NCBI GenBank assembly: GCA_016791425.1
Contig: JAEUMQ010000001.1
Span: 1 to 33,137, forward strand
DNA: 33,137 nt
Source: Hyphomonadaceae bacterium
Lineage (GTDB): Bacteria; Pseudomonadota; Alphaproteobacteria; Caulobacterales; Aquidulcibacteraceae
Direction of reading: 5' to 3'
Shown: piece after piece, positions 1,043 through 17,860 of the stretch
Position numbering within the stretch: the first letter of the stretch is position 1
Layout: each line of letters begins with the position of its first letter
The notes under the pieces: generated by a model
The model's database searches: none
What the model was told of the DNA's origin: nothing
What the model saw: the letters and a program-made list of their open reading frames with translations, nothing else
Made by a program: the position numbers and the translations under genes

Positions 1043-2065
1043 TCAATCGAGACGATCGAGCGCGGCGCGCACCATCGCCTGGAAGGCGCCCACGCCGCTC
1101 TCGTGCTTCGGCGACAGCCGCCCCCTCGCATAGACGCCGGCGTTGAGATTTTCCTGCACCCGCTCGACGATCCACTTGTCCTCGTTCGCCACCGCATCGG
1201 AAAGCGCCAGCGTCTCGACGGAAAGCTCATGGCCCGGCGGCATGAGATAAAGATAGTCGAGCCGCGTGCCTTCGCCCCCGATCGGACTCATCCGCTCGAT
1301 CATCAGCCCCGTCTGATAGACGTTGAACGCGATGTTCGGCCACACCCAGGCGAAGAACCCGCCATAGATCGCATCCTTCACTTTCGCCGGCGCATCGTTC
1401 CAGATCACCCGCCCTTCGACCCGGACCGAATAGCGCGGCGTATCCAGCTCCGCATCGAGCCCCGGATGCAGAATGGGAATGTGATACCCTTCGAGATAGT
1501 TCTCGACATAGGTCTTCCAGTTGCACTTCAGATGATGCCGCCGCGTTCCCGCGATATGATGCCCGCTCCAATCGCTCTCCCCAAGCGCCCGATCGAGCGG
1601 CGCCAGCAGATCCCCGAGGGCGCCCGCCTTCTCGTCCAGCGCCGCGAACACGAGCCCGCGCCAGCTCTCCACGCGCACCGGGAAGAGCGAAAAATCCCGC
1701 ACGTCGAAATCGCCCGCCGCACCGAAATCGCGCGCAGTCTTCAAGCGACCGTCGAGCGCATAGCGCCAGCCATGATAGCGGCAAACGAGCTCGCTCTTTT
1801 CGCAAACGCCGGAAGCCGTGTCCGTCAGCGGCCCGGCGCGATGGCGGCAGACATTGTGGAAGCCGCGAAACCCGCCCGAACCATCGCGCACGACCACGAT
1901 CGGATAGCCCGCCAGCGTCTCCGCCACGTATGAAGACGGCCCGGGCCACGCGCTCGCATGCCCCAGAAAATGCCAGCTGCGCGCGAACACGCCCGCGCGC
2001 TCTTGCCGCCATCGGCTCTCGCCGCTGTACCAATCCGCCGGCGCGGTCTGCGAGGTCTCGCCCAT
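1043..2065 (-). CDS. Rieske non-haem iron oxygenase, alpha subunit type
   Basis: This 340-residue protein should hydroxylate or demethylate a small organic substrate, using electrons passed from its Rieske cluster to a mononuclear iron. The N-terminal Rieske domain has CRHRAGPL (Cys73, His75) and CRYHGW (Cys95, His98), the ligands of a 2Fe-2S centre. The catalytic domain has the iron-binding pair His195 and His200 in NYLEGYHIPILHPGLD. The family tail ERVQENLNAGVYARGRLSP is also present. Size and layout fit the carnitine/choline-monooxygenase-like and aromatic-ring-hydroxylating group, but the substrate cannot be read from sequence. It needs a separate reductase, and none is nearby. It is divergent from matB across a 62-bp gap holding an inverted repeat, so the two may be regulated together. 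Confidence 0.88.
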   Translation of the reverse strand: MGETSQTAPADWYSGESRWRQERAGVFARSWHFLGHASAWPGPSSYVAETLAGYPIVVVRDGSGGFRGFHNVCRHRAGPLTDTASGVCEKSELVCRYHGWRYALDGRLKTARDFGAAGDFDVRDFSLFPVRVESWRGLVFAALDEKAGALGDLLAPLDRALGESDWSGHHIAGTRRHHLKCNWKTYVENYLEGYHIPILHPGLDAELDTPRYSVRVEGRVIWNDAPAKVKDAIYGGFFAWVWPNIAFNVYQTGLMIERMSPIGGEGTRLDYLYLMPPGHELSVETLALSDAVANEDKWIVERVQENLNAGVYARGRLSPKHESGVGAFQAMVRAALDRLD

Positions 2066-2127: not shown

Positions 2128-3612
2128 ATGAGCCACAACCTCTACGCACTCTTCCGCGCCCGCTTCGCCGCGCGCCTCCAAGCGCCCTGCTTTCTCGGCG
2201 CGGACGGCGCGGTCTTCAGCTTCGCCGCGCTCGACGATCTGTCCGCCCGCTTCGCCGCGCTCCTGCGCGCGCGCGGCGCTCGGCCCGGCGAGCGCGTTCT
2301 GGTGCAGGCGGAGAAGTCCATCGGCGCGGTCGCGCTCTATCTTGCGTGCCTGCGCGTCGGCGCCGTCTACACGCCCCTCAACCCCGCCTACACCGACGCC
2401 GAAGTCGATTACTTCATCTCCGATTGCGAGCCGGTTCTCGCGGTGCTCGCCAGGCCGCGCGAAACGAAGGCGCCGGCCGTCGAGTGTCTGGGTACGGACG
2501 AAGCCTCGCCCTTCTGGCGCGCCGCCCTCGCCGCCGACCCCGACCACGCGCTCGCCGACCGCGCCAGCGACGACATCGCTGCGATCCTTTACACCTCCGG
2601 CACCACCGGCCGCTCCAAGGGCGCGATGCTCTCCATCGGCAACCTCGCCTCGAACGCGCTCACGCTGCACGAGCTCTGGGGCTTCCGCCCCGACGACATC
2701 CTCATCCACGCGCTGCCCATATTCCACGTGCACGGATTGTTCGTGGCGCTGCATTGCCAGCTCCTCAACGCGACGCCTGCGATCTTCCTCGCCAAGTTCG
2801 ACGCCGCCGAGATCCGCGCGCTTCTCCCGCGCGCAACCATGCTCATGGGCGTGCCGACCTTCTACACCCGCCTCCTCTCGCTGCCCGGCTTCGGCCGCGC
2901 CGATTGCGCCTCGATGCGCCTCTTCATCTCCGGGTCCGCGCCGCTGCTCGCCGAGACCCATCGCGAATTCGAGGCGCGCACCGGCCATCGCATCCTCGAG
3001 CGTTACGGCATGACCGAAGCCGGCATGATCACTTCCAATCCGCTCGACGGCGAGCGCATCCCGGGCACCGTCGGCTATCCGTTGCCCGGCGTTTCCATCC
3101 GCAGCGTCGATGAGGCCGGCCGCACGGTCCCTGCGGGCGAGCCCGGCGTGATCGAGATCGCCGGCCCGAACGTCTTCCAGGGCTATTGGCGCATGCCGGA
3201 AAAGACCGCGTCTGAATTCCGCGACGGCTTCTTCGTCACCGGCGATGTCGGAACCATCGCTGAGGACGGACGCGTCGCGATCGTCGGCCGCGCCAAGGAC
3301 CTGATCATCTCCGGCGGCTTCAACATCTACCCCAAGGAGATCGAGGACGTGCTCGACGCCTGCGACGGCGTTTCAGAATCCGCGGTGATCGGCGTTCCGC
3401 ATCCTGATTTCGGCGAGGCCGTCGTCGCGCTGGTCGTGAAAAGGCCCAACGCCTCCCCTCGCATGCAGAGTCTGGAATCCGCCGTCGCCGAGAAGCTCGC
3501 CCGCTTCAAGCATCCCCGCGCCATCCTCATCCTGGAGGATCTCCCCCGCAACGCCATGGGCAAGGTCCAGAAGAACGTGCTCCGCGAGACGTACCGCGAC
3601 ATTCTGAAGTGA
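2128..3612 (+). CDS. matB: Malonyl-CoA synthetase (acyl-CoA synthetase/AMP-ligase family)
   Basis: The enzyme should activate malonate with ATP and CoA to malonyl-CoA in the cytoplasm by way of a malonyl-adenylate. The 494-residue protein matches MatB in length and in many signature blocks: EKSIGAVALYLACLRVGAVY near residue 55, the phosphate-binding YTSGTTGRSKG at 155-165, HALPIFHVHGLFVAL, TMLMGVPTFYTRLL, LFISGSAPLLAETH, ERYGMTEAGM, GYWRMPEKTASEF, and the C-terminal hinge and lysine region (SGGFNIYPKEIED, PRNAMGKVQKNVLRE). The start at 2128 was chosen because similarity to MatB begins there; the open frame extends upstream into the divergent gene. No malonate decarboxylase or transporter is next to it, so its role is probably salvage of free malonate. 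It converges on dnaE2 across a shared hairpin. Confidence 0.9.
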   Translation: MSHNLYALFRARFAARLQAPCFLGADGAVFSFAALDDLSARFAALLRARGARPGERVLVQAEKSIGAVALYLACLRVGAVYTPLNPAYTDAEVDYFISDCEPVLAVLARPRETKAPAVECLGTDEASPFWRAALAADPDHALADRASDDIAAILYTSGTTGRSKGAMLSIGNLASNALTLHELWGFRPDDILIHALPIFHVHGLFVALHCQLLNATPAIFLAKFDAAEIRALLPRATMLMGVPTFYTRLLSLPGFGRADCASMRLFISGSAPLLAETHREFEARTGHRILERYGMTEAGMITSNPLDGERIPGTVGYPLPGVSIRSVDEAGRTVPAGEPGVIEIAGPNVFQGYWRMPEKTASEFRDGFFVTGDVGTIAEDGRVAIVGRAKDLIISGGFNIYPKEIEDVLDACDGVSESAVIGVPHPDFGEAVVALVVKRPNASPRMQSLESAVAEKLARFKHPRAILILEDLPRNAMGKVQKNVLRETYRDILK

Positions 3613-3616
3613 AGCG

Positions 3617-3648
3617 CTTCTCTCTCCCGCCGGCGCGGGAGCGAGAAG
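3617..3648. terminator. Bidirectional hairpin between matB and dnaE2
   Basis: The 36-bp gap between the two convergent genes is almost entirely a hairpin. The arms at 3617-3630 and 3635-3648 are 14 bases each with a single mismatch, around the loop CGGC. It can end transcription from either side. There is no T-run, so it may act only as a roadblock or an mRNA 3'-end stabiliser. Confidence 0.65.
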
Positions 3649-6600
3649 TCAGTGGAAGTTCCGCCCCTTCGGCATCACGCTTTCCGCGCGGAGATCATGG
3701 CGGATCTTTCGCGGATGCTGCCGCGCATCGCTCCCCGGCCGCCGCACTTCATCCGCCCGCGCCGGAACATTGGCGAAATCCGCAACCGACAGCTTCGCCA
3801 AGAGCGGCGTGAAATCGATCAGCCGCTCGGCGACCACATGCACGACCCCATTGGCGTTCTGCACGATCCCATCGACCGCGCAGAGCCTCGCCCCCAGCAC
3901 TTGCGCGCGGAATTGCTCGAACACTTTCGGCCACACGATGATGTTGGCGATGTGCGCTTCATCCTGCAGCGTCATGAAGATCACTCCCGACGCCGTCCCC
4001 GGCCGCTGCCGCACGAGCACGAGCCCCGCCGCCCGCACGCGCGCATCGTTCGCCAGATCCGGCAGCCCATCGGCTCTGGTCACGCCGCGCGCCTCCAGCT
4101 CCGCGCGCAGCAGCGCCGCCGGATGCGCCTTCAGCGAAAGCCCGATCGTGCGATAATCCTCCACCACATGCTCCCCCATAAGCATCGACGGCAGCGGATA
4201 ATCCGGCTCCAGCGTGGGGGCCGCGCTTTGCACGAAGAGCGGCAGGTCTTCCTGCCCCCCCACCCGGTTCAGCCCCCGCGCAGCCCAAAGCGCATCGCGC
4301 CGATCCAGGCCCAGCGACCGGAACGCATCGGCCTCCGCCAATTTCTCGATCGTCGCCGGCGACAGCCCCGCGCGCAGCCACACATCCCGCACGGAATCAT
4401 AGCCGCGCCCGCGCCGCTCCACGAGCCGCTTCAATTCCTCCTCCGCCAATCCGCTGATCTGGCGAAATCCCATCCGCACCGCATGCGTGGACTTGACGTC
4501 TCCGCGCATGTCTTCGTGGCGTTCGTGCAGATGGTCCCGCGCGCACCTTTCACGCTCCTGTTCCAGACTGTTGTCCCAGTCCGAGCAATTCACATCCGGC
4601 GCGCGCGCTTCCACCCCATGCTCGATCGCATCGAGCACGATTTCCGACGGCGCATAAAATCCCATCGGTTGCGCGTTCAGCAGCGCCGCAGCGAACACAT
4701 CGGGAAAATAGCATTTGAGCCACGACGAAGCATACACAAGCAGCGCGAAGCTGGCCGCATGGCTTTCGGGAAACCCGTACTCGCCGAAGCCTTCGATCTG
4801 CGCGAAGCTCGCTTCGGCGAACGCGCGTTCGTAACCGTTGCCGATCATCCCGTTGATGAACTTTTCCTTCAATTGCCCGATCGTCCCGACGCGCCTGAAT
4901 GTCGCCATCGCACGCCGCAGCTTATCGGCTTCCGGGGGCGAGAACCCCGCCGCGACGATCGCGATCTGCATCGCCTGCTCCTGGAAGAGCGGCACGCCCA
5001 AGGTCCGCTTCAACACCTCGCGCAACGCTTCGGACGGATAGCTGACCTCCTCGATCCCCTGCCTGCGCTTCAGGTACGGATGCACCATTCCGCCCTGGAT
5101 CGGCCCCGGCCGCACGATCGCCACCTCGATGACGAGATCGTAGAAGCACTCCGGCCTGAGCCGCGGCAGCATCGACATCTGCGCTCGGCTCTCCACCTGG
5201 AAGACGCCGATCGAATCCGCCCGCTTCAGCATCGCATAGACGCGCGGATCCTCCTTCGGCAGCGAGCTGATCGTGAGCGTAATGAGCGCCCCCCCCCCCC
5301 CTTGCGGGGAGGGGGTAGGGGGTGGGGGGCGATCCGCTAGGCCAAACGCTTCAGAATCAACGCAACGACGTTCGCTCAATTCCGCAGGCGCTTGCACGCT
5401 TGCACGCCCCCCACCCCCTACCCCCTCCCCGCAAGGGGGAGGGGAAGCCTCTTCCTGCGGCGTCAGCCGCGCCCAATTCGGATAATGCGCGTTGACGAGA
5501 TCGAACGCCTTCTTGATGCACGTGAGCATCCCGAGGCCCAAGAGATCGACCTTCAGGATCTTCAGTTCCTCCAGATCGTCCTTGTCCCATTCCACGACCG
5601 TGCGGTCCTCCATCGCCGCGTTCTGGATCGGCACGATATCGTCGAGCTGCTCGCGCGTGATCACGAACCCGCCCACGTGCTGCGACAGATGCCGTGGAAA
5701 GCCGCGCAGCTCCTGCACCAACCGCAAGCATGTCATCAGCCGCCCGTCGCGCGGATCGAGCCCCAGCTCTTTGAGGTCGATCTCCGCGACCGCTTTGCTC
5801 CACCATTGCTGCGTCTTGGAGAGCGCCGCGATCCGATCCTCCGAATACCCGAACGCCTTGCACACCTCGCGGATCGCGCTCCGCCCCCGATAGCAGATCA
5901 GCGTCGCCGCCAGCGCGGCCCGATGGCGCCCGTATTTCTTGTAGACGTACTGGATCACCTCCTCGCGCCGCTCGTGCTCGAAATCGACGTCGATGTCCGG
6001 CGGCTCGTTACGCTCGGTGGAGACGAAGCGGTCGAAGAGGAGATCGAAGCGCGCGGGATCGACTTCCGTGACCCCGAGGCAATAGCAGACCGTCGAATTC
6101 GCCGCTGATCCGCGCCCCTGGCACAGGATCGGCTCTTTCGGATTGCCGTCCTTGTCATAGGGCGAGCGCGCGAACTTCACGATGTCCTGCACGGTGAGAA
6201 AGTAAGGCGCGTACTTGAGCTGCGCGATGATCCCGAGTTCGCGGACCAGAAGATCGCGCACCTTCTGCGGCACGCCGTTCGGATAGCGCGTCTCGGCGCC
6301 CTTCCACGCCAGCGCCTCGAGCGCCGTTTGCGCGTCGGGATAGCCATCGATCACTTCATCCGGGTACTGATAGGAAAGCTCGTCGAGCGAGAACGCGATC
6401 CCGTCGAGGAACGCCGCCGTCTCCGCCACAACCTCCGGCGCATCCCGATAAAGCCGCGCCATCTCCTCCGGCGCCTTCAGATGCCGCTCGCCATTCGCCG
6501 CCAGCAGCGTTCCGGCAGCGTCGAGCGTCGTCTTCTCGCGGATGCAGGTGAGCACATCCAGCAGCGCGCGCCGTTCGGGAACATGATGCAGCGGCTCGCT

Positions 6601-7158
6601 CGTCGCGATGAGCCTGGCGCCCGTCTCCTGCGCCAATTGCTTCAGCACCCGCAGCCGCCGGCGATCCTCGCCGTCGAACACGAAGCGCGCCGCAAGCCAC
6701 GCCTCCCCCGCGCGTTCACGAACGGCCTTGAGACACGCGCGCAAGCTCTCATCCGGCGCCGATCCCGCGGCCAGAACCGGCGCCACGATCGCCTGCAATC
6801 CATCGCAATGATCGATGAGATCGCGAAGATCGAGCCAGCACGCGCCTTTCGGCGCGCGCCTGTTTCCGAGCGTCAGCAGCCGCGTGAGCCGCGCATAGGC
6901 GGCCCGATCTTTCGGAAAGACGAGAATGTCCGGCGTTCCGTCTTGAAAAACCAATCGCGCGCCGACCGCGAGCTTGAGCTTCGCCTCCTTCGCCGCCGCA
7001 TGCGCACGCACGATGCCTGCAAGCGAATTGCGGTCCGCGACCCCGAGCCCTTTGAGGCCCAGCGCCTTGGCCTGCATGACGAGCTCCTCCCCGTGCGAAG
7101 CCCCGCGCAGAAAGGAGAAGTTCGTCGTCGCGCACAGCTCCGCGAACGCCACGCTCAT
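3649..7158 (-). CDS. dnaE2: Error-prone DNA polymerase III alpha subunit (DnaE2/ImuC), carrying an in-frame palindromic repeat
   Basis: This is the catalytic polymerase of the SOS mutasome, which copies past DNA lesions with low fidelity. It has an N-terminal PHP domain (start VAFAELCATTNFSFLRGASH), a C-family polymerase core with the catalytic aspartates in PDIDVDFE at 387-394, the block ADSIGVFQVESRAQMSMLPR, and a C-terminal OB fold. The ATG at 7158 was chosen because GGAGG stands six bases before it and family similarity begins there. At 1169 residues it is longer than the roughly 1,050-1,100 usual for DnaE2. Much of the excess is residues 572-623, a Pro/Gly-rich insert encoded by a 154-bp palindromic element, placed just before the conserved LPKEDPRVYAML block. 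The frame stays open through it. A 13-C run lies at one end of the insert. Confidence 0.95.
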   Translation of the reverse strand: MSVAFAELCATTNFSFLRGASHGEELVMQAKALGLKGLGVADRNSLAGIVRAHAAAKEAKLKLAVGARLVFQDGTPDILVFPKDRAAYARLTRLLTLGNRRAPKGACWLDLRDLIDHCDGLQAIVAPVLAAGSAPDESLRACLKAVRERAGEAWLAARFVFDGEDRRRLRVLKQLAQETGARLIATSEPLHHVPERRALLDVLTCIREKTTLDAAGTLLAANGERHLKAPEEMARLYRDAPEVVAETAAFLDGIAFSLDELSYQYPDEVIDGYPDAQTALEALAWKGAETRYPNGVPQKVRDLLVRELGIIAQLKYAPYFLTVQDIVKFARSPYDKDGNPKEPILCQGRGSAANSTVCYCLGVTEVDPARFDLLFDRFVSTERNEPPDIDVDFEHERREEVIQYVYKKYGRHRAALAATLICYRGRSAIREVCKAFGYSEDRIAALSKTQQWWSKAVAEIDLKELGLDPRDGRLMTCLRLVQELRGFPRHLSQHVGGFVITREQLDDIVPIQNAAMEDRTVVEWDKDDLEELKILKVDLLGLGMLTCIKKAFDLVNAHYPNWARLTPQEEASPPPCGEGVGGGGRASVQAPAELSERRCVDSEAFGLADRPPPPTPSPQGGGGALITLTISSLPKEDPRVYAMLKRADSIGVFQVESRAQMSMLPRLRPECFYDLVIEVAIVRPGPIQGGMVHPYLKRRQGIEEVSYPSEALREVLKRTLGVPLFQEQAMQIAIVAAGFSPPEADKLRRAMATFRRVGTIGQLKEKFINGMIGNGYERAFAEASFAQIEGFGEYGFPESHAASFALLVYASSWLKCYFPDVFAAALLNAQPMGFYAPSEIVLDAIEHGVEARAPDVNCSDWDNSLEQERERCARDHLHERHEDMRGDVKSTHAVRMGFRQISGLAEEELKRLVERRGRGYDSVRDVWLRAGLSPATIEKLAEADAFRSLGLDRRDALWAARGLNRVGGQEDLPLFVQSAAPTLEPDYPLPSMLMGEHVVEDYRTIGLSLKAHPAALLRAELEARGVTRADGLPDLANDARVRAAGLVLVRQRPGTASGVIFMTLQDEAHIANIIVWPKVFEQFRAQVLGARLCAVDGIVQNANGVVHVVAERLIDFTPLLAKLSVADFANVPARADEVRRPGSDARQHPRKIRHDLRAESVMPKGRNFH
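5289..5444. repeat. Family 1 palindromic repeat doublet inside dnaE2, with a 13-C run
   Basis: A perfect 34-bp inverted repeat (5297-5330 against 5406-5439) brackets a 75-bp centre. Each arm is itself a small hairpin of the type CCCCTCCCCGCAAGGGGAGG, so the unit looks like two REP-like sequences head to head (a REPIN). A run of 13 C residues fills 5289-5301. The G-runs (GGGGAGGGGGTAGGGGGTGG, 5307 onward) also fit a G-quadruplex pattern. The dnaE2 reading frame passes through without a stop. The related copy is at 7200-7350. Confidence 0.85.
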
Positions 7159-7199
7159 GACGCGCCTCCGCTGGCGCAAGCATCTCCAAGCACGCGCGG

Positions 7200-7350
7200 C
7201 CCCCTCCCCTTGAGGGGAGGGGGGAGGGGGTGGGGTGTTGCGCGACGATACAAAGCTAGGCGCGCGCTGGGCTGCTGTGGCTTGGTCAGCCAAAGCACTA
7301 ATTTCGGAGGCTCACCCCGCCCCCTGCCCCCTCCCCTCAAGGGGAGGGGG
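7200..7350. repeat. Family 1 palindromic repeat doublet between imuB and dnaE2
   Basis: The arms 7200-7237 and 7313-7350 are inverted copies of 38 bp with two mismatches, around a 75-bp centre. That spacing is the same as in the dnaE2 element, although the central sequences differ. It fills nearly all of the 208-bp gap between imuB (stop 7367) and dnaE2 (start 7158). In the imuB-dnaE2 transcript it would form a long hairpin and could lower dnaE2 expression relative to imuB. Each arm contains CCCCTCCCCTCAAGGGGAGG. Confidence 0.85.
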
Positions 7351-7366
7351 AGGCGTCCCAGCCTGA

Positions 7367-8932
7367 TCACGCGAACACTCCGTGCACGAACCATTGCGGC
7401 GCCGCGGCCTCATGATAGAGCCCGTCGCGATAGACCCAGTAGCGCCGCCCCTCCCTGTCCTCGAGCCGGTAATAGTCGCGCGTGAGCTGCGATCCCGCTT
7501 GCAGCCAATTCGCCGCGATCCGCTCCGGCCCTTCCGCGCGCACGACCTCGCGCAGCACCCGTCGCCAGCGGAAGCGCACGGGCGGCCCGTCCGGGACCGC
7601 CGCGATCGCCTCGATCGGCTGCGCCCGCGTAAACAATGTGAGCGGCCGCCGCATCACGTCGTCTTCGGGAGCTCCCCGCGACGCTTGCACGCTCCCCGGA
7701 CCCGGCGCAGCCGCGATCCGGGGCCCAAGGTCGTGCATTCTTCGGCTGTCGCTCGCACCTTCCGGCAGATGCGTATCTCTCACCGCCAGCGTTCCAACCG
7801 CGGACGACCCGAGCCGCGCGGCGAGCATGTCCAGCAGGCGCGCCTCCGCATCCGGATCGCACGCCGAAGCGGGCGCAAGATCGGTCGCATTGAGCACGAT
7901 CGGCGCAATCTCGCACGCATCGAGCCGCACCGCCTCGAAGCCGAACTCCGCGTCGAGCGTTTCCCCCAGCGCGGCAAGCCGCTCGCGGAAAAGCCGCAGG
8001 ATCGGTTTCCCATCGCGTTCCGGCCGCGCCATTCCAAGCGCAATGACGCGCGTCTTTGCATCCACCCCGAAGAGCACGAGCCTGAGCTTGAGCGCGCCCG
8101 CGCCGCGCCGCTCGAGCTTCGTGCAAAGATCCGCACAAAGATCTTCCGCGACATGCAGGATCGCCTCCTGCGTCACGATCGGCTCGGCGAGCTTTCTCTG
8201 CGCAAAGACCGGCGGCGGCGGACGCCGGGGAGAAAGCGCCGGCCGCGCGCGCCCGAGCGCTTCATCGAGCCGGAGCATCGCCTGCTGGCCCGCCCGCGCC
8301 GCGAACGGCTCGCGCGGGCCCTCCATGATCTGCCCGATCGTCTTGAGCCCGAGACGCTTCAGCAAACCCGCCGCCGCATCCTCCAGGCGCAACGCCGCCA
8401 CAGGCAAAGGCTTCAGCACGTCGCGCAAATCCGCATCCTGCACGACGAGCTTCTGTCCGTACCGCACGCACGCCCACGCCGCCGATGGATTGGGTGCGAT
8501 CGCCGCGCGCGAGATGAACCCTTGCGCCTTGAGCCGCGCAACCACCGTTGCACGAAGCATCTCTTCGCCGCCGAAGAGATGGCTTGAGCCGCCGACATCG
8601 AGAAAAAGCGCATCCGGCGCCGCCACGACCACGATCGGCGTGAAGCGCTCGCACCAGGCTGCGACATGATCGAGCAGGCGCGCATCGGCGCCCGCGTCGG
8701 CCTCGAAAGCGACGAGATCTGGCGCTATGGCGCGTGCATCGGCGAGCGGCATGTCCACGGCGAGGCCGGCGCGCTCGGCAAGCCGATCGACCGCACTCAG
8801 CGTGAAGGCGTTGCCGATCTTGGCGTAGACCGCAAACAATCCCTCAGGCGCTGAGCCGTCGCGGCGCAGCCGGTCGGTCGCCAGCCGCGGCAGCCAGATC
8901 GCCATCCATCGACTTGTTGAAAGTTCTCGCAT
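7367..8932 (-). CDS. imuB: ImuB, Y-family-like mutasome subunit
   Basis: ImuB is a catalytically inactive relative of Y-family polymerases that links ImuA and DnaE2 to the beta clamp. Residues 10-27 (MAIWLPRLATDRLRRDGS) are the family start. Other recognisable blocks are the palm-like APDALFLDVGGSSHLFGGE, the helix-hairpin-helix LLKRLGLKTIGQIM, and the C-terminal RDYYRLEDREGRRYWVYRDG and PQWFVHGVFA. The first ATG (8932) has GGA nearby; the ATG at 8905 fits the family start equally well. Both overlap the end of imuA (8844), so the two are translated together. Residues about 400-415 come from a palindromic repeat of family 2, inserted in a linker after RDTHLPEGASDSRR without breaking the frame. 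Confidence 0.93.
   Translation of the reverse strand: MRELSTSRWMAIWLPRLATDRLRRDGSAPEGLFAVYAKIGNAFTLSAVDRLAERAGLAVDMPLADARAIAPDLVAFEADAGADARLLDHVAAWCERFTPIVVVAAPDALFLDVGGSSHLFGGEEMLRATVVARLKAQGFISRAAIAPNPSAAWACVRYGQKLVVQDADLRDVLKPLPVAALRLEDAAAGLLKRLGLKTIGQIMEGPREPFAARAGQQAMLRLDEALGRARPALSPRRPPPPVFAQRKLAEPIVTQEAILHVAEDLCADLCTKLERRGAGALKLRLVLFGVDAKTRVIALGMARPERDGKPILRLFRERLAALGETLDAEFGFEAVRLDACEIAPIVLNATDLAPASACDPDAEARLLDMLAARLGSSAVGTLAVRDTHLPEGASDSRRMHDLGPRIAAAPGPGSVQASRGAPEDDVMRRPLTLFTRAQPIEAIAAVPDGPPVRFRWRRVLREVVRAEGPERIAANWLQAGSQLTRDYYRLEDREGRRYWVYRDGLYHEAAAPQWFVHGVFA
7690..7737. repeat. Family 2 palindromic repeat inside imuB
   Basis: The unit contains CGCTCCCCGGAC (7690), GATCCGGGGC (7715) and TCGTGCA (7731). 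On the minus strand from 12478 the same three blocks appear at the same offsets (0, 25 and 41 bases), so this is a true repeat. In the imuB frame it encodes roughly LGPRIAAAPGPGSVQAS, with no stop. Confidence 0.75.
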
Positions 8933-9563
8933 GCGCGTTCCAGACGAGCGAAGTGGAGAAGCCGGCCGGGCCGGCGCGATTGCGCAGAAGCTCGATATTG
9001 AATGCCGGCGCGCCCAGTTCGCGGTTGGCGCCCTTGCTTGGCGCCGCGCGCACCCGCCAGCGCGCCCACGCCGCGCTCGCCGCGCCCCCGTCGAAGCGCA
9101 GGAGCACGCAAGCCGTGCGATGCTTCTCCGCGATGAGAAGCAACCGGCGCGTGGCGGTGAGGCTCAGCGGCTTGCGCGTCTGCCAGATGGTGACGAGCGC
9201 CAGCGCCGCGGGAATTTTCAGCGTCTGCTCCGCGGCCCAGAGCGCATCGGCCTGGGAGCGCGCCCGCACCAGGAAAAGCCGCTCCAGCGCCAGCCCGTAT
9301 TGCGCAAGGCCCGGCGCATAAGGAACGCCCTCCTCCCCGAAGCTCGCCTCCGGCGCGGCCCAGACGATGAGCCCCCCATCGCGACCCCCATCGCGCCTTC
9401 CGGGCGAAAGCGCCTGGGCCCAGGCGAGCGCGAAACCGAGCGCCGCCGCGCCGTCCCCGGGCGCGGCGGGCAGGATCTCGCTCAGCGGCGGCCGCGATCC
9501 CAAGCCCGAGAGGCCCCCATGGAAAGCGGCCGGAAGCGGATCGGCTTGAGCTGATGCCGGCAC
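8844..9563 (-). CDS. imuA: ImuA, RecA-like mutasome protein
   Basis: The 239-residue product is the RecA/SulA-like partner that binds RecA and ImuB in SOS mutagenesis. Recognisable parts are LPAAFHGGLSGLGSRPPLSE at the start, a central region (ALGFALAWAQAL, GLIVWAAPEASFGEEG, YGLALERLFLVRARSQADAL, TRRLLLIAEKHRTACVLLRF), and a basic C-terminal tail. The start is GTG at 9563. No ATG lies nearby and there is no ribosome site, because the promoter lies immediately upstream; the mRNA is probably leaderless. It is the first gene of imuA-imuB-dnaE2 and its 3' end overlaps imuB. Confidence 0.9.
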   Translation of the reverse strand: MPASAQADPLPAAFHGGLSGLGSRPPLSEILPAAPGDGAAALGFALAWAQALSPGRRDGGRDGGLIVWAAPEASFGEEGVPYAPGLAQYGLALERLFLVRARSQADALWAAEQTLKIPAALALVTIWQTRKPLSLTATRRLLLIAEKHRTACVLLRFDGGAASAAWARWRVRAAPSKGANRELGAPAFNIELLRNRAGPAGFSTSLVWNAHARTFNKSMDGDLAAAAGDRPAAPRRLSA

Positions 9564-9755: not shown

Positions 9756-11219
9756 ATGACCGACATCTTCATTTCCTACGCGCGCGCCGACCGCGACCGG
9801 GTGCGCAACATCGCGCTGGCGCTGACGGCGGAAGGCTTCGCTGTCTGGTGGGATCCTGACATCAAGCCGGGCAAGCAATGGAACGACGTGATCCGCAAGG
9901 CGCTCGACGACGCCGCCGCGGTCGTCGTCTGCTGGTCTCCGACCTCCGCGAAATCGAACTGGGTGGCCGCCGAAAGCAATCACGCCAACGCCCGCCGCGC
10001 GCTCGTGCCGGTCATGGTCAAGAGCTGCAATCCGCCGATCCCGTTCAACATGATCCAGTCGGCCGATCTCACCCGCTGGCGCGGCGATCCCGACCATGCC
10101 GAATGGGTGATGGCGCTGCGCGAGATCCGCCGCCTGGTCGAAGCCAAGCGGCGCGGGATCGCGGCCGCGCCGCCGCCTGGCGAAGCCGAAGGCGCGACGA
10201 TGTCCGGTTCAGGCGCCGGCGCCGGTTATGGCGCGGGCGCAGGCGTTGGGGGAAACATCCCCTATCAGCTTTCCCGCACGCGCGGCCGCATGGGCCCGCG
10301 TCTCAGCCAGATGCTCTTGAGCACGGTCGTGATCGGCGCGGTGCTTACCGCGGGCATCGTCGCGGCCTCCAACATCGACAAGATCTACCGGCCTCCGCCG
10401 GCCATCGCGACCCGCGTCGACGCCGCGCCCGAGCCCTCCACGCCGACCCCGACGAAAACCGCGGGGCTCGACAGGCCTTCTGCGCCGAAAGCGCCGCGGA
10501 TCGACCGTCCGGCGCCGCCAGAAACCGAGCCTGAGGTTGCGCAGGAGCCGGATCTTCCGCCCGAACCGGAGCGTCCCTCGATCGATGATCGCGCCGATGT
10601 GCCCGCGTTGGAGCAATGCATCGCGCGTCTCGCGGCCTCGTGTCCCGCCGCGAACGGATCGCCGGTCGGCTTCCACGCCAACAACAGCATCGACCCCGCC
10701 GAGCGCAGATTCCTCGCCGCGCTGGGCGTCTCGGTGGAGCCGCGCATCAACGCCTCGGCGAACAATTTCTGCAACAGCCGCCGGCCGAGCTCCCGGCCCG
10801 TCCGCGCCGCCTGCGACGAGATCTCCTTCCCCCGCGAAGAGCGCCCGAACGGCGGACGTCCCCCGCGCGAACAGACCCCGCGCGCCAACAACAACGGCAA
10901 TATCGGCGCGATCCTGGGCGGCATCCTGGGCGCGCTCGTCGTCGGCGCCGCAGTCAACGAAGCCAACAATCGCGACGACCATCGCAACGACGACAAGCCC
11001 CCGCCTTCGGGCGAAAGCAATCCGCCGCGTCCGCGCGACGAGGCGGCGCCGCGCGCCGATACCGCCAATCCCGGCAACGTCCAGCAACAGCCCGGCGGCG
11101 TGATCTACCGTCGCGGCGCAGCCCAGCGCGTGGACAATGCAAGCCTGCTCTGCGCGACCGCCGAATCCCGCGCCCGCAACCCGAACTCGTGCCCGCAGGA
11201 CGGCCCGATCGTGAAGTGA
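9756..11219 (+). CDS. Membrane-anchored TIR-domain protein
   Basis: Residues 1-130 form a TIR domain. It starts with TDIFISYARADRDRV, has AVWWDPDIKPGKQW, and carries SAKSNWVAAE, in which Glu73 sits where TIR NAD-cleaving enzymes have their catalytic glutamate. A Gly/Ala-rich linker follows. One clear membrane segment lies at about 185-206, then a Pro-rich stretch to about 285, then a tail with Cys288, Cys296, Cys339 and Cys353 and two more near the end, consistent with disulfides in the periplasm. A glycine-zipper segment (GAILGGILGALVVGAAV, about 384-400) could insert in a membrane. I infer TIR inside and tail outside. The substrate and trigger are unknown, and no classical defence partner gene is adjacent. 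GGAG precedes the ATG, and a strong terminator follows. Confidence 0.85.
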   Translation: MTDIFISYARADRDRVRNIALALTAEGFAVWWDPDIKPGKQWNDVIRKALDDAAAVVVCWSPTSAKSNWVAAESNHANARRALVPVMVKSCNPPIPFNMIQSADLTRWRGDPDHAEWVMALREIRRLVEAKRRGIAAAPPPGEAEGATMSGSGAGAGYGAGAGVGGNIPYQLSRTRGRMGPRLSQMLLSTVVIGAVLTAGIVAASNIDKIYRPPPAIATRVDAAPEPSTPTPTKTAGLDRPSAPKAPRIDRPAPPETEPEVAQEPDLPPEPERPSIDDRADVPALEQCIARLAASCPAANGSPVGFHANNSIDPAERRFLAALGVSVEPRINASANNFCNSRRPSSRPVRAACDEISFPREERPNGGRPPREQTPRANNNGNIGAILGGILGALVVGAAVNEANNRDDHRNDDKPPPSGESNPPRPRDEAAPRADTANPGNVQQQPGGVIYRRGAAQRVDNASLLCATAESRARNPNSCPQDGPIVK

Positions 11220-14519: not shown

Positions 14520-14972
14520 TCAGTTCTGCGGCGGCAGGATGTCGGCGGAAAGCAGGATCGTTTGCCGACGCGAATTGTTGCGCCACCAATGCGAAGTCGC
14601 GCCCTGCTCGGCGACGACCTCCCCCTCGCGGTGCAGGATCGGATCCGCGCAGGTGCTGCGGTATTCGGTGACCTGGCCCTTCAGCACGTAGATGTTCGCG
14701 GGGCGATCCATGTGCGAATGCCAGGGCACGACGCCGCCCGGCTCGATCACGAGGCGACGAAGGCGCAATTGCCGGCCGGGGATGTTGTAATTGGCGAGAT
14801 CGACGGAGGAGATGACCGTATCGGTGACGCGCTCGGGCGCCGAGGGGCCCGGCTGCGTGACATCGACGCCGACCTTGTCAGCCGGGCATTCCCCGGCATA
14901 GGCGGGCGCCGCGGCGAAGGCGAGGGCGGCGAACGCGGCGGCGATGGAAAAGCGCTTGATCTTCACGAACAT
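14520..14972 (-). CDS. Secreted cupin-domain protein
   Basis: The 150-residue product has a signal peptide (FSIAAAFAALAFAAAPAYA, cleaved before GEC) and a single cupin barrel. Motif 1 is seen as PWHSHMDRPANIYVLKGQ, with two histidines suited to metal binding; motif 2 is weaker, with His in ATSHWWRN. Two cysteines (in GECPAD and STCADP) may form a disulfide. It is thus a small periplasmic metal-binding protein of unknown activity. The start at 14972 has AGGAG in front. The gene is divergent from the four-gene redox operon and has its own ECF-type promoter facing it, so it is likely to be induced together with that operon. Confidence 0.85.
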   Translation of the reverse strand: MFVKIKRFSIAAAFAALAFAAAPAYAGECPADKVGVDVTQPGPSAPERVTDTVISSVDLANYNIPGRQLRLRRLVIEPGGVVPWHSHMDRPANIYVLKGQVTEYRSTCADPILHREGEVVAEQGATSHWWRNNSRRQTILLSADILPPQN

Positions 14973-15011
14973 GTTGAACTCCTGATCTGCAACCTTGAGG
15001 TCCACCGCTCG

Positions 15012-15037
15012 TTCGCGCCGCGGCGCCCGGCGGTTAC
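15012..15037 (-). promoter_or_regulatory. ECF sigma-type promoter of the cupin gene
   Basis: On the minus strand, GTAACC (15037-15032) is followed after exactly 16 bases by CGAA (15015-15012). As I recall, GTAACC-N16-CGAA is the promoter pattern of the Caulobacter crescentus ECF factor sigma-F. The expected transcript starts near 15005, about 33 bases before the cupin ATG. Confidence 0.7.
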
Positions 15038-15073
15038 CGAATTCGGCTGTGTCGCGAAAGGGGCGCCCCGGCC

Positions 15074-15099
15074 GTAACCGGCGCGCGTTCGCGCGCGTC
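15074..15099 (+). promoter_or_regulatory. ECF sigma-type promoter of the redox operon
   Basis: GTAACC (15074-15079) is followed after exactly 16 bases by CGTC (15096-15099), a usual ECF -10 core. The expected start near 15106 gives a very short leader containing the GGGAGGAGG ribosome site before the ATG at 15120. It mirrors the minus-strand promoter at 15012-15037. Confidence 0.7.
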
Positions 15100-15119
15100 T
15101 CACGTGGGAGGAGGCGCCC

Positions 15120-15335
15120 ATGAGCATCGCGGCCGCTGAAATTCTCTGGACGCTGGCCGCCCTCTATCTTGGCGCGGGGCTTCTCGTCGCGATCCCGCTC
15201 CTCTTCGGCGGCGCGATCGGCCGCTTCGACCGCCAGGCCGCGTCCGCGCCGCTGCACGTCAAGCTCCTGCTTGCGCCCGGGCTCATCGCGCTCTGGCCGC
15301 TGATGCTTCAGAAGGCCAGGGCGGACCGGCCGTGA
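15120..15335 (+). CDS. Small two-helix membrane protein, first gene of the redox operon
   Basis: The 71-residue product has two hydrophobic segments (ILWTLAALYLGAGLLVAIPLL and LLLAPGLIALWPLML) joined by a basic loop with a conserved-looking GRFDRQAA. I do not recognise a named family. A strong ribosome site (GGGAGGAGG) precedes the ATG. Its stop overlaps the next start (GTGA), so the genes are translationally coupled. Position and size suggest an accessory subunit of the haem/Rieske membrane protein encoded downstream. Confidence 0.8.
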   Translation: MSIAAAEILWTLAALYLGAGLLVAIPLLFGGAIGRFDRQAASAPLHVKLLLAPGLIALWPLMLQKARADRP

Positions 15336-15469
15336 TCCGCACTCAACGCTCCCTGCACGCGCTGATCTGGAGCGCGCTCGCGATCGCGCTGGCGATGATC
15401 GTCATCGGCGCCCTGGTTGCGCGCGAGGGCGCGGTCGACGCCGCGCGCGCGATCGTCAGGGGCCGCTGA
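15332..15469 (+). CDS. 45-residue single-helix membrane protein
   Basis: A GTG at 15332 overlaps the preceding stop by 4 bases (GTGA), and the frame ends with TGA at 15467-15469, sharing one base with the next ATG. The product has one membrane helix (LHALIWSALAIALAMIVIGA) and a short basic tail ending in VRGR. It is too short for common gene-length cut-offs. Precise coupling on both sides and a membrane helix in keeping with its neighbours argue that it is real. Function is unknown; a small stabilising subunit is the natural guess. Confidence 0.75.
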   Translation: MIRTQRSLHALIWSALAIALAMIVIGALVAREGAVDAARAIVRGR

Positions 15470-16533
15470 TGGCGCACGGATACCGCGCCGTCCAATGGAA
15501 CGCATTCAAGCGAATGTACGACCTCGCGCTGGTCGCGGGCGCAGCGACCTATGTCATCGTGTTCACGTTGGCGACGCTGAGCGTCGCGCCGCCCGGCGAG
15601 AGCTACTCAGAGATCCAGGTGCTGATCCGCGCCTTCGGCGGCGCCGCGTTCGGCCTTCTGCATCTCATCCTGATGATCGGACCGTTGGCGCGCCTGACGC
15701 CGCGCGCGAAGCCGCTGCTCTACAATCGCCGCCACATGGGCGTGCTGTGCTTTGCGCTCGCCCTTATCCACGCGTCGCTGGTCTTGCTCTGGTATCACGG
15801 CTTTTCCGACCTCAACCCGCTCGTCTCCCTGCTGGTCTCCAATCCGCGCTACGCGTCCATCGGCGGCTTCCCGTTCGAATCCCTGGGGCTCCTCGCGCTG
15901 GCGATCCTCTTCCTCATGGCCGCCACCAGCCACGATTTCTGGAACGCCAACCTCGGCCCTGTGGTCTGGAAAAGCCTCCACATGGCGGTCTATGCCGCCT
16001 ATGCGCTTCTGGTCGCGCACGTGATGCTCGGAGTCGTGCAATACGAGCGCAGCTTGATCTATCCCATGCTGGTGAGCGCCGGCGCCACGGCGCTTGTGGG
16101 CCTGCATCTCACGGTCGGCTGGCGCGAATGGGCGAAGGATCGCGCCGCCTTCGAGATGGATCGCGAAGGCTGGCTCCGCATCGCGCCCGTTTCCGAGCTG
16201 ATCGACGGCCGCGCGAAAATCATCGCGCCGCCGCACGGCGAGCGCATCGCCATCTTCCGCAACGGCGACCGCGTGCTGGCGCTCTCCAATGTGTGCCGCC
16301 ACCAGGGCGGCCCGCTGGGCGAGGGACGCATTATCGACGGCTGCGTTGTGTGCCCCTGGCACGGCTTCCAGTACCTGCCTGAAACCGGCCGCTCTCCGCC
16401 GCCATTTGTCGAGCGCGTCGATACCTTCCGCACCCGGATCGTCGATGGAATCGTCTATGTCCATCCCGCGCCCTGCCCCGCCGATGCGCCCGCCGCGCCG
16501 AGCCTGATCCGCGAGAGCGCGCATGTCGGATGA
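15469..16533 (+). CDS. Ferric-reductase-like haem membrane protein fused to a Rieske 2Fe-2S domain
   Basis: Residues 1-220 contain about six membrane helices with histidines placed as in haem-b membrane reductases: His65, His89 (RRHMG), His101, His171 (KSLHMAVYAAY), His184 and His213. Residues 230-345 are a Rieske domain with CRHQGGPLGEG (Cys276, His278) and CPWHGFQYLPETG (Cys295, His298). The fusion should move electrons between membrane haem and a soluble iron-sulfur head. Which side of the membrane the Rieske head faces is not certain; an even helix number would put it in the cytoplasm with the N-terminus. The start ATG shares a base with the preceding stop, and the 3' end overlaps the next gene by 11 bp. 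Electron donor and acceptor are not visible in the window. Confidence 0.87.
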   Translation: MAHGYRAVQWNAFKRMYDLALVAGAATYVIVFTLATLSVAPPGESYSEIQVLIRAFGGAAFGLLHLILMIGPLARLTPRAKPLLYNRRHMGVLCFALALIHASLVLLWYHGFSDLNPLVSLLVSNPRYASIGGFPFESLGLLALAILFLMAATSHDFWNANLGPVVWKSLHMAVYAAYALLVAHVMLGVVQYERSLIYPMLVSAGATALVGLHLTVGWREWAKDRAAFEMDREGWLRIAPVSELIDGRAKIIAPPHGERIAIFRNGDRVLALSNVCRHQGGPLGEGRIIDGCVVCPWHGFQYLPETGRSPPPFVERVDTFRTRIVDGIVYVHPAPCPADAPAAPSLIRESAHVG

Positions 16534-17272
16534 TTTCTTCATCGGCTGGGCGCCCACGCCTGAGCCGGACCGCCGCTTCCTCCTGCGCGCCGCGCTCGGG
16601 CTGGTCGCGATCGGCGCCGGCGCCGGCGGCCTGCTGGCTTCCCAACAGGCGCCGCCCGGACCGGGACAATGGAAGCAGGGCGAAGTCCGCACATGGCGCG
16701 GACTGCTCGTGCGCGAGCCCTACCCCGCCTTGCGCACGCTCGATCTGGACGGTTCGCCGCGCACGGCCTTTCTCGCCACGTCGGGCAAGCTCGGCGTGCA
16801 GGGCCGTCTGACGAACGAGATGTGCGGCGCCGTCGCCGTGCGCGGCAGCCTGATCGCGCGCGGCCGTCACGCGATGATCGCCGTCCCCGACGGCGATGAC
16901 TGGATCACGCTCGCCTCGGCGAGCGAACCGGACCTGGCCGAGATGCGCGAAGAAGACCTCGGCGAGGTTTTGCTCGTCGGCGAGATCCTTGACTCCAAAT
17001 GCTGGTTCGGCGCCATGCGTCCGGGCCAAGGCAAGCCCCACAAATCCTGCGCATCGCTCTGCCTGCGCGGCGGCTTGCCCGCAGCGTTCTGCGCGGGGCC
17101 GAATTGCGGTGAGGGATCAGAGGCGCCGCTCTTCCTCGACGCTCAAGGTCGCGCGCACGGACATGAGCTCTTGTCTCTTGCCGCCGATCCCGTCCGCGCG
17201 CTTGGCCGCCTCGTGCGCGTCGGCGACGTCACCCAATTCCGCGCCGATCTTTCAAACGTGGCACGCCTTTAG
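16523..17272 (+). CDS. Membrane-anchored six-cysteine protein of the redox operon
   Basis: The 249-residue product has a short cytoplasmic start, RR at 17-18, and a hydrophobic segment (FLLRAALGLVAIGAGAGGLL, 19-38) that anchors or exports it; the arginine pair is Tat-like but not the full motif. The rest is probably periplasmic. It holds Cys101 and the striking block DSKCWFGAMRPG (158-169) then KPHKSCASLCLRGG (171-184), then Cys190 and Cys195. Clustered Cys and His suggest a metal or cofactor site. I recall similar DxKC...HxxCAxxCxxGG blocks in unnamed bacterial proteins but can assign no function. It is the last gene of the operon, and its stop overlaps the convergent antitoxin stop by 3 bases. 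Confidence 0.8.
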   Translation: MSDDFFIGWAPTPEPDRRFLLRAALGLVAIGAGAGGLLASQQAPPGPGQWKQGEVRTWRGLLVREPYPALRTLDLDGSPRTAFLATSGKLGVQGRLTNEMCGAVAVRGSLIARGRHAMIAVPDGDDWITLASASEPDLAEMREEDLGEVLLVGEILDSKCWFGAMRPGQGKPHKSCASLCLRGGLPAAFCAGPNCGEGSEAPLFLDAQGRAHGHELLSLAADPVRALGRLVRVGDVTQFRADLSNVARL

Positions 17273-17559
17273 GCAGGTTCGGTAACCGTGAGTCGCAGAC
17301 CGATGGCCTTCAACACCTCGAGAGTCGTGCTGAGCGTTGGATTCCCATTCGCGCTGAGCGCGCGGTAGAGACTCTCGCGAGACAAGCCGGTCGCTTGAGC
17401 GATCTCGCTCATTCCCCGGGACCGCGCGACCGCGCCGATGGCCTCCGCAATGACGCCCGTGTCGCCATCTTCGAACGCAGCCTCCAGAAGGAGAAAAGCA
17501 TCCTCCGGCGTATCGACATAGTTCGCAGCATCGTACGGACGGGTGTTTATCTTAGCCAT
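17269..17559 (-). CDS. HI1420-type antitoxin (HTH)
   Basis: The 96-residue protein matches the addiction-module antidote family of the HI1420 type. It begins KINTRPYDAANYVDTPEDA, has ALLEAAFEDGD-like central helices and IAEAIGAVARSRGMSEIAQ, then a helix-turn-helix ATGLSRESLYRALSANGNPT and the ending LEVLKAIGLRLTV. It should neutralise the upstream toxin and repress the operon. The ATG at 17559 lies 8 bases inside the toxin's 3' end, so the two are coupled, with the toxin first, which is the usual order in this family. The longer upstream frame is only toxin sequence in another phase. Confidence 0.9.
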   Translation of the reverse strand: MAKINTRPYDAANYVDTPEDAFLLLEAAFEDGDTGVIAEAIGAVARSRGMSEIAQATGLSRESLYRALSANGNPTLSTTLEVLKAIGLRLTVTEPA

Positions 17560-17860
17560 CCTGCTCTTCCTTCCATCCCCGCCAGAGCGTCTTCGCCTTC
17601 TCGATATCGCGTGCTTGGGTGCTCTTGTCGCCGCCCGCGAGCAGCAGAATGAGCTCCTCGCCGCGCTGCGCGAAATAGACACGATAGCCTGGACCGAACA
17701 TGAGCCGGAGCTCGCTTACTCCGTCTCCGACCGGCGAAACGTCCCCCGGATTGCCAAGCCTCAGTCGGATAATTCGCGCGTTGATGCGCGCCACGGCCTT
17801 CCGGTCGCGAAGCGCCCCCAGCCACTCGCCGAACGTCTCGGTCTCAATGGCTGGGATCAC
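17552..17860 (-). CDS. HI1419/RelE-type toxin
   Basis: The 102-residue protein is of the RelE/HigB-like phage-derived toxin family paired with HI1420 antitoxins. Typical parts are FGEWLGALRDRKAVARINAR, IRLRLGNPGDVSPVGDGVSE, LRLMFGPGYRVYFAQRGEEL and LLLAGGDKSTQARDIEKAK. It is expected to cleave mRNA at the ribosome when free of antitoxin. The start is GTG at 17860; an in-frame stop lies just upstream and no ATG is available. GGAG and AAGG precede it. The promoter region carries a perfect palindrome. Confidence 0.9.
   Translation of the reverse strand: MIPAIETETFGEWLGALRDRKAVARINARIIRLRLGNPGDVSPVGDGVSELRLMFGPGYRVYFAQRGEELILLLAGGDKSTQARDIEKAKTLWRGWKEEQDG

Follow-up and report, generated by a model that had tools for sequence, protein, structure and literature searches.

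What do four overlapping genes, three of them without a Pfam match, do together, and does the cupin gene that diverges from them belong to the same system? The question is raised by a 33,137-nt stretch of a Hyphomonadaceae genome (assembly GCA_016791425.1, contig JAEUMQ010000001.1), called the window below. The four genes encode a protein of 71 residues (p71), one of 45 residues (p45), a fusion of a haem membrane domain of the ferric reductase domain (FRD) type with a Rieske domain (the fusion) and a protein of 249 residues (p249). We find that p71, p45, the fusion and p249 are a real unit. We also think it rather probable that the four proteins make up a single inner-membrane complex through which electrons cross the membrane; linkage, conservation, topology and folds were computed, while the rest, namely complex formation, haem binding, haem number, direction of flow, and the p249 cofactor and substrate, is what we infer.

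Five open reading frames (ORFs) were confirmed in place, with the cupin gene on the reverse strand and 147 nt between it and p71 (Table 1). The overlaps are 4 nt (p71/p45), 1 nt (p45/fusion) and 11 nt (fusion/p249), and the layout given in the initial annotation, a divergent cupin and four genes overlapping by 1–11 bases, is borne out by the ORF coordinates. Its haem-membrane/Rieske fusion stands as well: the protein matches Pfam families Ferric_reduct (PF01794, 48.4 bits, cut-off 28) and Rieske (PF00355, 47.8 bits, cut-off 20.3). The cupin matches Cupin_2 (31.2 bits, cut-off 27.2). No Pfam family was matched by p71, p45 or p249 at E ≤ 1, and for the window proteins all NCBIfam matches were below the cut-offs.

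A search of genome contigs with the fusion returned 44 loci, 40 of which are FRD-Rieske relatives (L026 and L041–L043 being partial; L numbers denote loci and G numbers genomes) and four Rieske-only matches. The set of 61 relatives used below comprises 38 of these 40 loci and 23 of 29 loci from further searches; L026 and L043, where the gene is cut at a contig end, and the duplicates L112–L115, L117 and L119 were left out. Most loci are contigs of metagenome-assembled genomes, with contamination unchecked. By record titles, they come from Alpha-, Beta- and Gammaproteobacteria, Acidobacteria, Verrucomicrobiales, Gemmatimonadetes, Phycisphaerales and Bacteroidota.

Co-occurrence supports the unit. 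Among 385 genomes of the window's class (its own included), the fusion was found in 18 (E ≤ 1e-30) and p249 at full length in 16; the fusion is present in all 16 p249 genomes, and p249 in 16 of the 18 fusion genomes (Fisher test, 2e-26, for genomes that are not independent). The p249 genome list had 19 entries, with the weak partial matches in G081, G165 and G196 not counted. The two genes are neighbours in the window and at every one of the 15 class loci that the p249 search found. Of the 61 relatives 59 have p249, the exceptions being L036 and, at a contig end, L041; this count is partly so by construction, because L097–L111 were found by p249, a bias from which the 16/16 and 16/18 counts are free. 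On plasmids, fusion and p249 occur in the same five of five records, all Rhizobium, and in the gene tables of two such plasmids the row is a ‘Rieske 2Fe-2S domain-containing protein’ flanked by hypothetical proteins. Pairwise identities of the fusion and of p249 over 55 loci have a correlation of 0.87 (the maximum among 200 permutations was 0.175), which indicates shared history, not contact. The fusion is patchy in its distribution, since in a separate count, made over 61 near relatives and distinct from the 61 fusion loci, it was full length in only 14.

The small genes travel with this pair. Iterated profiles of p71 and p45 were run against the 900 nt that precede the fusion at 64 loci (the 61 relatives, the window as profile seed and two plasmid loci). 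The p71 profile matched in 61 of the 64 and the p45 profile in 60, the seed included; for the other relatives alone the counts are 58/61 and 57/61. Neither profile had a match in the control stretches (0/64 antisense, 0/62 downstream). In L098, L102 and L118 the profiles found p71 and p45 joined in a single ORF, and the same was seen by eye in L107 and L108; in L038 the fusion and p249 form a single ORF of 623 residues in the order FRD-Rieske-p249. A p45-like protein of ∼150 residues with an extra C-terminal part lies upstream of the fusion in L031, L032, L033 and L036. Judged from the overlaps and the natural fusions (p71 with p45, and fusion with p249 in L038), it is plausible that the four proteins form a complex. 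They do not prove the stoichiometric complex for which the initial annotation took the overlaps to argue.

The cupin does not travel with them. The initial annotation had counted five genes as one set and named their co-occurrence across genomes as the check; with that check run, the four genes are linked rather than independent and the cupin fails, being near the fusion in two of 61 relatives, and we rejected it as a member. A gene for a short-chain dehydrogenase/reductase was likewise rejected as a fifth member; related genes stand at L004, L016, L019, L020, L197 and L199 only. A patatin-bdhA-MFS block, considered as a possible link to polyhydroxybutyrate, is whole in the window, L039 and L121 and present in parts in L019 and L098. 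Cupin and block are regional neighbours only. That the four genes too are chance neighbours without joint function, as closely packed genes in a GC-rich genome with purely regional company (the cupin and this block) might be, is refuted for them by the co-occurrence, the empty controls, the natural fusions and the co-varying identities, and deserves next to no credence beyond the cupin.

The fusion itself combines features of known families. It shows six hydropathy peaks, and its AlphaFold2 model, a confident one (mean predicted local distance difference test, pLDDT, 91.7), has helices in the core and a beta domain at the C-terminus; the prediction is the six-helix form of FRD proteins, with both termini inside. 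Across 60 aligned sequences His89, His101, His155, His171 and His184 are invariant, and the Rieske ligands C276, H278, C295 and H298, in their C-x-H and C-x2-H pairs, are kept in 60 of 60 rows. The best Protein Data Bank (PDB) matches found by Foldseek are dioxygenase Rieske ferredoxins. Net charge is +2.48 at the N-terminus and +4.02 in loop 2, against −0.90, −0.75 and −0.40 in loops 1, 3 and 5; since this bias puts both ends inside, the Rieske domain is predicted to be cytoplasmic. An outward iron-sulfur head is thus not supported, and the electron path that the initial annotation had drawn from membrane haem to an iron-sulfur head more likely runs in reverse, from Rieske to haem to p249.

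Alignment with Escherichia coli MsrQ shows shared histidines at 101, 171 and 184 and an arginine pair at 87–88. Of the canonical haem ligands, the pair in helix 5 and the outer histidine of helix 3 are present in 60 of 60 sequences; the first position is Arg87, with His89 two residues on. Arg87 sits 14 residues before His101, as do residues 101 and 115 of NOX2. An arginine in place of the first haem-spanning histidine is described as a signature of YedZ, MsrQ and STEAP in the accessible part of PMC3591440, and Arg87 carries it, as judged by the signature residue alone in alignment to the MsrQ pair. One haem, predicted at His101/His184, is likely, and a second is possible. After the last helix Pfam finds only Rieske, with no match to the FAD and NADPH domains of NOX and FRE proteins. 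Nor is the protein a cytochrome bc1/b6f component, for it has no cytochrome b family match in Pfam and its Rieske domain is predicted inside.

In p249 the cysteines are at 101, 160, 176, 180, 190 and 195. Of these only Cys160, Cys176 and Cys180 are conserved, as are His173 and Met165 (58 of 59 rows), and the spacing C-x12-H-x2-C-x3-C is identical in the same number, the exception being the N-terminal fragment of L042, where p249 is split over two ORFs and the second carries the motif. The 59 rows leave out L022, L033 and L038, all three of which hold it. Residues common to 56 p249 sequences are K89, G153, D157, K159, C160, G163, M165, P167, H173, C176 and C180. The dense Cys/His block of the initial annotation is therefore an invariant C/H/C/C site and not a six-cysteine one, the other three cysteines being unconserved. 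In the AlphaFold2 model (mean pLDDT 92.1) one N-terminal helix precedes a soluble part with two beta barrels; C176 and C180 lie on helix 174–182 with H173 just ahead, and C160 lies on helix 158–164. In the model this arrangement suits a metal or thiol site, short of proof. The N-terminal helix, and in L038 a hydrophobic stretch between the cytoplasmic Rieske part and the p249 part, place p249 by prediction on the outside. A CuA-like site was considered and rejected, the order of residues being unlike the CuA motif.

No relative of p249 was found by sequence in the PDB at E ≤ 1, fold matches are weak and mostly to OB folds (SSB, LysRS, RPA), and PHROGs gave two matches with E of 0.17 and 0.24. 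The C-terminal domain does have stand-alone relatives, which are 145–161 residues long with a signal-like start (by eye); comparison by hhalign gave 98.2% and E 3e-14 (five sequences), and the same C-x12-H-x2-C-x3-C motif is present in four of the five. No Pfam match was obtained in the three that were scanned. In L213–L215 a gamma-glutamyltransferase-like gene (named by eye) adjoins the stand-alone gene. In Phycisphaera mikurensis (a single record) the next genes after the stand-alone one encode a membrane protein with DUF2231 and a Rieske protein.

Candidate cytoplasmic partners were seen near the fusion. A gene joining Rieske to a glutamate-synthase-like enzyme occurs in 24 of the 61 relatives and one joining Rieske to a thiamine pyrophosphate (TPP) enzyme in 22; either is found in 27 and both in 19. 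Among the 385 class genomes the former is present in eight, seven of which have the fusion, and the latter in 13, six of which have it; these counts take only matches starting in the Rieske part (eight of 78 listed genomes for glutamate synthase, 13 of 15 for TPP). A DUF1622 membrane protein (e.g. L013 1420–1866) is encoded in 10 of the 61 relatives, all with a Rieske-TPP gene.

Taken together, these data suggest the following route. A cytoplasmic reductase or dehydrogenase would pass an electron to the [2Fe-2S] cluster in the C-terminal, ferredoxin-type Rieske domain of the fusion. From there it would travel outward by the b haem or haems of the six-helix, MsrQ-like core, to be handed at the outer face to the C/H/C/C site of p249, which may be the terminal reductase or a carrier to one. 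p71 and p45 would be small structural subunits, and in some genomes the Rieske-fused pyruvate-oxidase-like (TPP) and glutamate-synthase-like (flavin mononucleotide, FMN) enzymes could be the cytoplasmic partners. The outward direction is preferred because of the habit of the FRD superfamily and the pyruvate-oxidase-like partner.

Several observations weigh against this route. Among the 50 Foldseek matches listed for the fusion there is no FRD structure, and those of p249 to the PDB include none at E ≤ 0.001. Loop 4 (+0.30) and the C-terminal segment (+0.40) of the fusion are weakly charged, and Arg87 at the first haem-histidine position makes one haem rather than two possible. L036 (Bacteroidia), G216 and G382 have the fusion without a p249 match, and no C-x12-H-x2-C-x3-C was found within the fetched loci L036, L144 and L146. 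In L144 (G216) a gene for a Rieske protein with a nicotinamide adenine dinucleotide phosphate (NADPH)-dependent FMN reductase (2554–3681) follows the FRD-Rieske gene where p249 would be expected; the fusion can therefore work in the absence of p249. The three cysteines and histidine of p249 could be a zinc site, or a disulfide plus a thiol. The Rieske protein of Phycisphaera seems exported (weak Tat-signal matches), unlike the window fusion. Seven of the 13 class genomes with the Rieske-TPP enzyme are without the fusion, and the window's own genome has neither a Rieske-fused TPP nor a glutamate-synthase-like enzyme, so these partners are optional.

The chemistry at the outer end may be narrower than electron transfer in general. 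On one reading p249 acts on copper or iron, by binding or reduction, or on disulfides, by reduction, and the fusion would serve as an assimilatory reductase of metals or thiols; metal reduction is a property of FRE and STEAP relatives, according to the accessible part of PMC3591440, and the invariant p249 site bears Cys, His and Met. The Phycisphaera stand-alone relative lies near genes for a four-helix copper-binding protein, a metal-sensitive regulator and RND/TolC efflux; this copper context is however a single record, and no metal transporter or receptor was recognised by sequence among the recurring neighbour clusters listed for 66 loci, not all of them annotated. We hold this reading to be a serious possibility though short of an even chance. 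It is one version of the transmembrane conduit, and the likelihoods that we attach to the several readings do not exclude one another for that reason.

The direction could also be the opposite one, with p249 oxidising a periplasmic substrate and the electron passing through the haem core to Rieske and on to the cytoplasmic Rieske-fused enzymes. These partners bear Rieske domains of their own, at least one of them accompanies the fusion in the 27 relatives counted above, and one is glutamate-synthase-like; enzymes of the glutamate-synthase type usually accept electrons. The pyruvate-oxidase-like partner, however, would more naturally donate electrons, both partners are missing from the window's genome, and outward electron movement is the rule given for FRE and NOX in the accessible part of PMC3591440. 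We regard inward flow as improbable.

Protein repair after the manner of MsrPQ, with the fusion in the role of MsrQ and p249 in that of MsrP, reducing oxidised periplasmic proteins, seems less probable still. The MsrQ alignment speaks for homology, as does a match to the MsrQ equivalog NF003831 in NCBIfam; its 45.2 bits are below the cut-off of 130. A twin arginine, as expected for a partner exported by the twin-arginine translocation (Tat) pathway, lies within the first 45 residues in 33 of the 59 p249 rows, but 26 (two of them fragments) lack it, and Tat export may apply to part of the family only. Also, p249 matched no family of Pfam or NCBIfam at E ≤ 1, molybdoenzymes included, in contrast to what an MsrP partner would be.

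Returning to outward conduction through the fusion to p249, a wider reading can be offered as tentative and, at present, rather unlikely to hold as a whole. It is that p249 and its stand-alone relatives, which carry C-x12-H-x2-C-x3-C on an OB-like barrel, form an undescribed extracytoplasmic redox class whose counterparts are a Rieske cluster and a membrane protein. The complex of the four gene products would on this view be a respiratory or reductive line across the membrane that receives its electrons from Rieske-tagged enzymes of the cytoplasm, with Rieske as the common plug.

Table 1. Positions of the features discussed (window coordinates, or locus coordinates where a locus is named)
Feature	Position	Strand	Basis
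Cupin, divergent regional neighbour, secreted	14520..14972	-	Cupin_2; signal-peptide-like start judged by eye
Shine-Dalgarno-like purine-rich stretch GGGAGGAGG, 5 nt ahead of p71 ATG	15106..15114	+	Read from sequence
p71, 71 aa, two-helix membrane protein	15120..15335	+	ORF; profile matches upstream of fusion
p45, 45 aa, one-helix protein, GTG start	15332..15469	+	ORF; profile matches
FRD-Rieske fusion, 354 aa, MsrQ-like six-helix haem domain and C-terminal Rieske [2Fe-2S]	15469..16533	+	Pfam, conservation, AlphaFold2
Six-helix membrane region, residues 12-226 (His89, His101, His155, His171, His184, Arg87-Arg88)	15502..16146	+	AlphaFold2, conservation, MsrQ alignment
Rieske ferredoxin-type domain, C276-x-H278, C295-x2-H298, predicted cytoplasmic	16171..16482	+	Pfam, conservation, Foldseek, positive-inside count
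p249, 249 aa, N-terminal anchor and two OB-like barrels, predicted outward facing	16523..17272	+	AlphaFold2; adjoins fusion
p249 invariant block C160-x12-H173-x2-C176-x3-C180 (with D157, K159, M165)	17000..17062	+	Alignment
Stand-alone p249 relatives	L213 2192-2641, L214 2089-2535, L215 6345-6782, L200 5890-6375		

Elsewhere in the window, positions 3649–9563 (reverse strand) hold a DNA polymerase III alpha-type gene, a Y-family (impB/mucB/samB) gene and a gene of 239 codons without a Pfam match, a row that resembles an imuA-imuB-dnaE2 mutagenesis cassette. A 487-residue protein with an N-terminal TIR domain is encoded at 9756–11219 (forward), a toxin-antitoxin-like pair (an HI1420-type antidote protein and a Gp49-like protein) at 17269–17860 (reverse), directly past p249, and a Rieske oxygenase alpha subunit of the ring-hydroxylating type at 1043–2065 (reverse).

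If the proposed route is true, it adds an electron route through the inner membrane in which a Rieske cluster, not a flavin, is the cytoplasmic entry, and a protein family that has no Pfam or NCBIfam model, no PDB sequence relative and no assigned cofactor. With its near-fixed gene set, natural fusions and unvarying ligand spacing, the system lends itself to direct tests, including tests in hosts that can be cultured, such as those of the Rhizobium plasmid copies.

How does the set compare with known systems? The initial annotation knew no named system with this set, and for the four genes we likewise found no named equivalent: neither the set nor p249, which has no name to search by, appeared in literature searches that mostly did not extend to subscription papers. 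The combination of FRD with Rieske is already on record: Zhang et al. 2013 (PMC3591440) name it in a figure legend, as model M4. M4 is likened to the fusion by domain names alone, and the accessible text on it mentions no operon, p249 or small subunits.

The MsrQ-like flavinylated extracytosolic systems (PMC8238504, as far as the source was accessible) are alike in that an MsrQ-like membrane protein feeds an outer redox protein. They are defined by an FMN-binding domain and ApbE genes; Pfam found no FMN-binding domain in the five window proteins (the rest of the genome was not searched for ApbE), and the word Rieske does not occur in the main text of that paper. The aromatic dioxygenase Rieske ferredoxins (CarAc, BphA3) share the Rieske sequence and fold with the fusion, whose Rieske domain is joined to a membrane haem domain.

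NOX and FRE ferric reductases, bacterial NOX among them, resemble the fusion in having an FRD core and, after the helices, a cytoplasmic redox domain that feeds the haem (PMC3591440, accessible part); the fusion has Rieske for the FAD and NADPH domains, an arginine at the first haem-histidine position and a linked outer p249. MsrQ (YedZ) of MsrPQ shares with it the six-helix PF01794 core, three haem-histidine positions, the arginine pair and a periplasmic partner encoded alongside. Relative to MsrQ the fusion adds the C-terminal Rieske domain and the invariant His89 and His155; relative to MsrPQ the window set adds two small membrane proteins, and its partner shows no family match to a molybdoenzyme. 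As judged from its sequence, the fusion falls outside the MsrQ equivalog, NOX and bc1 groups and keeps the YedZ/MsrQ signature.

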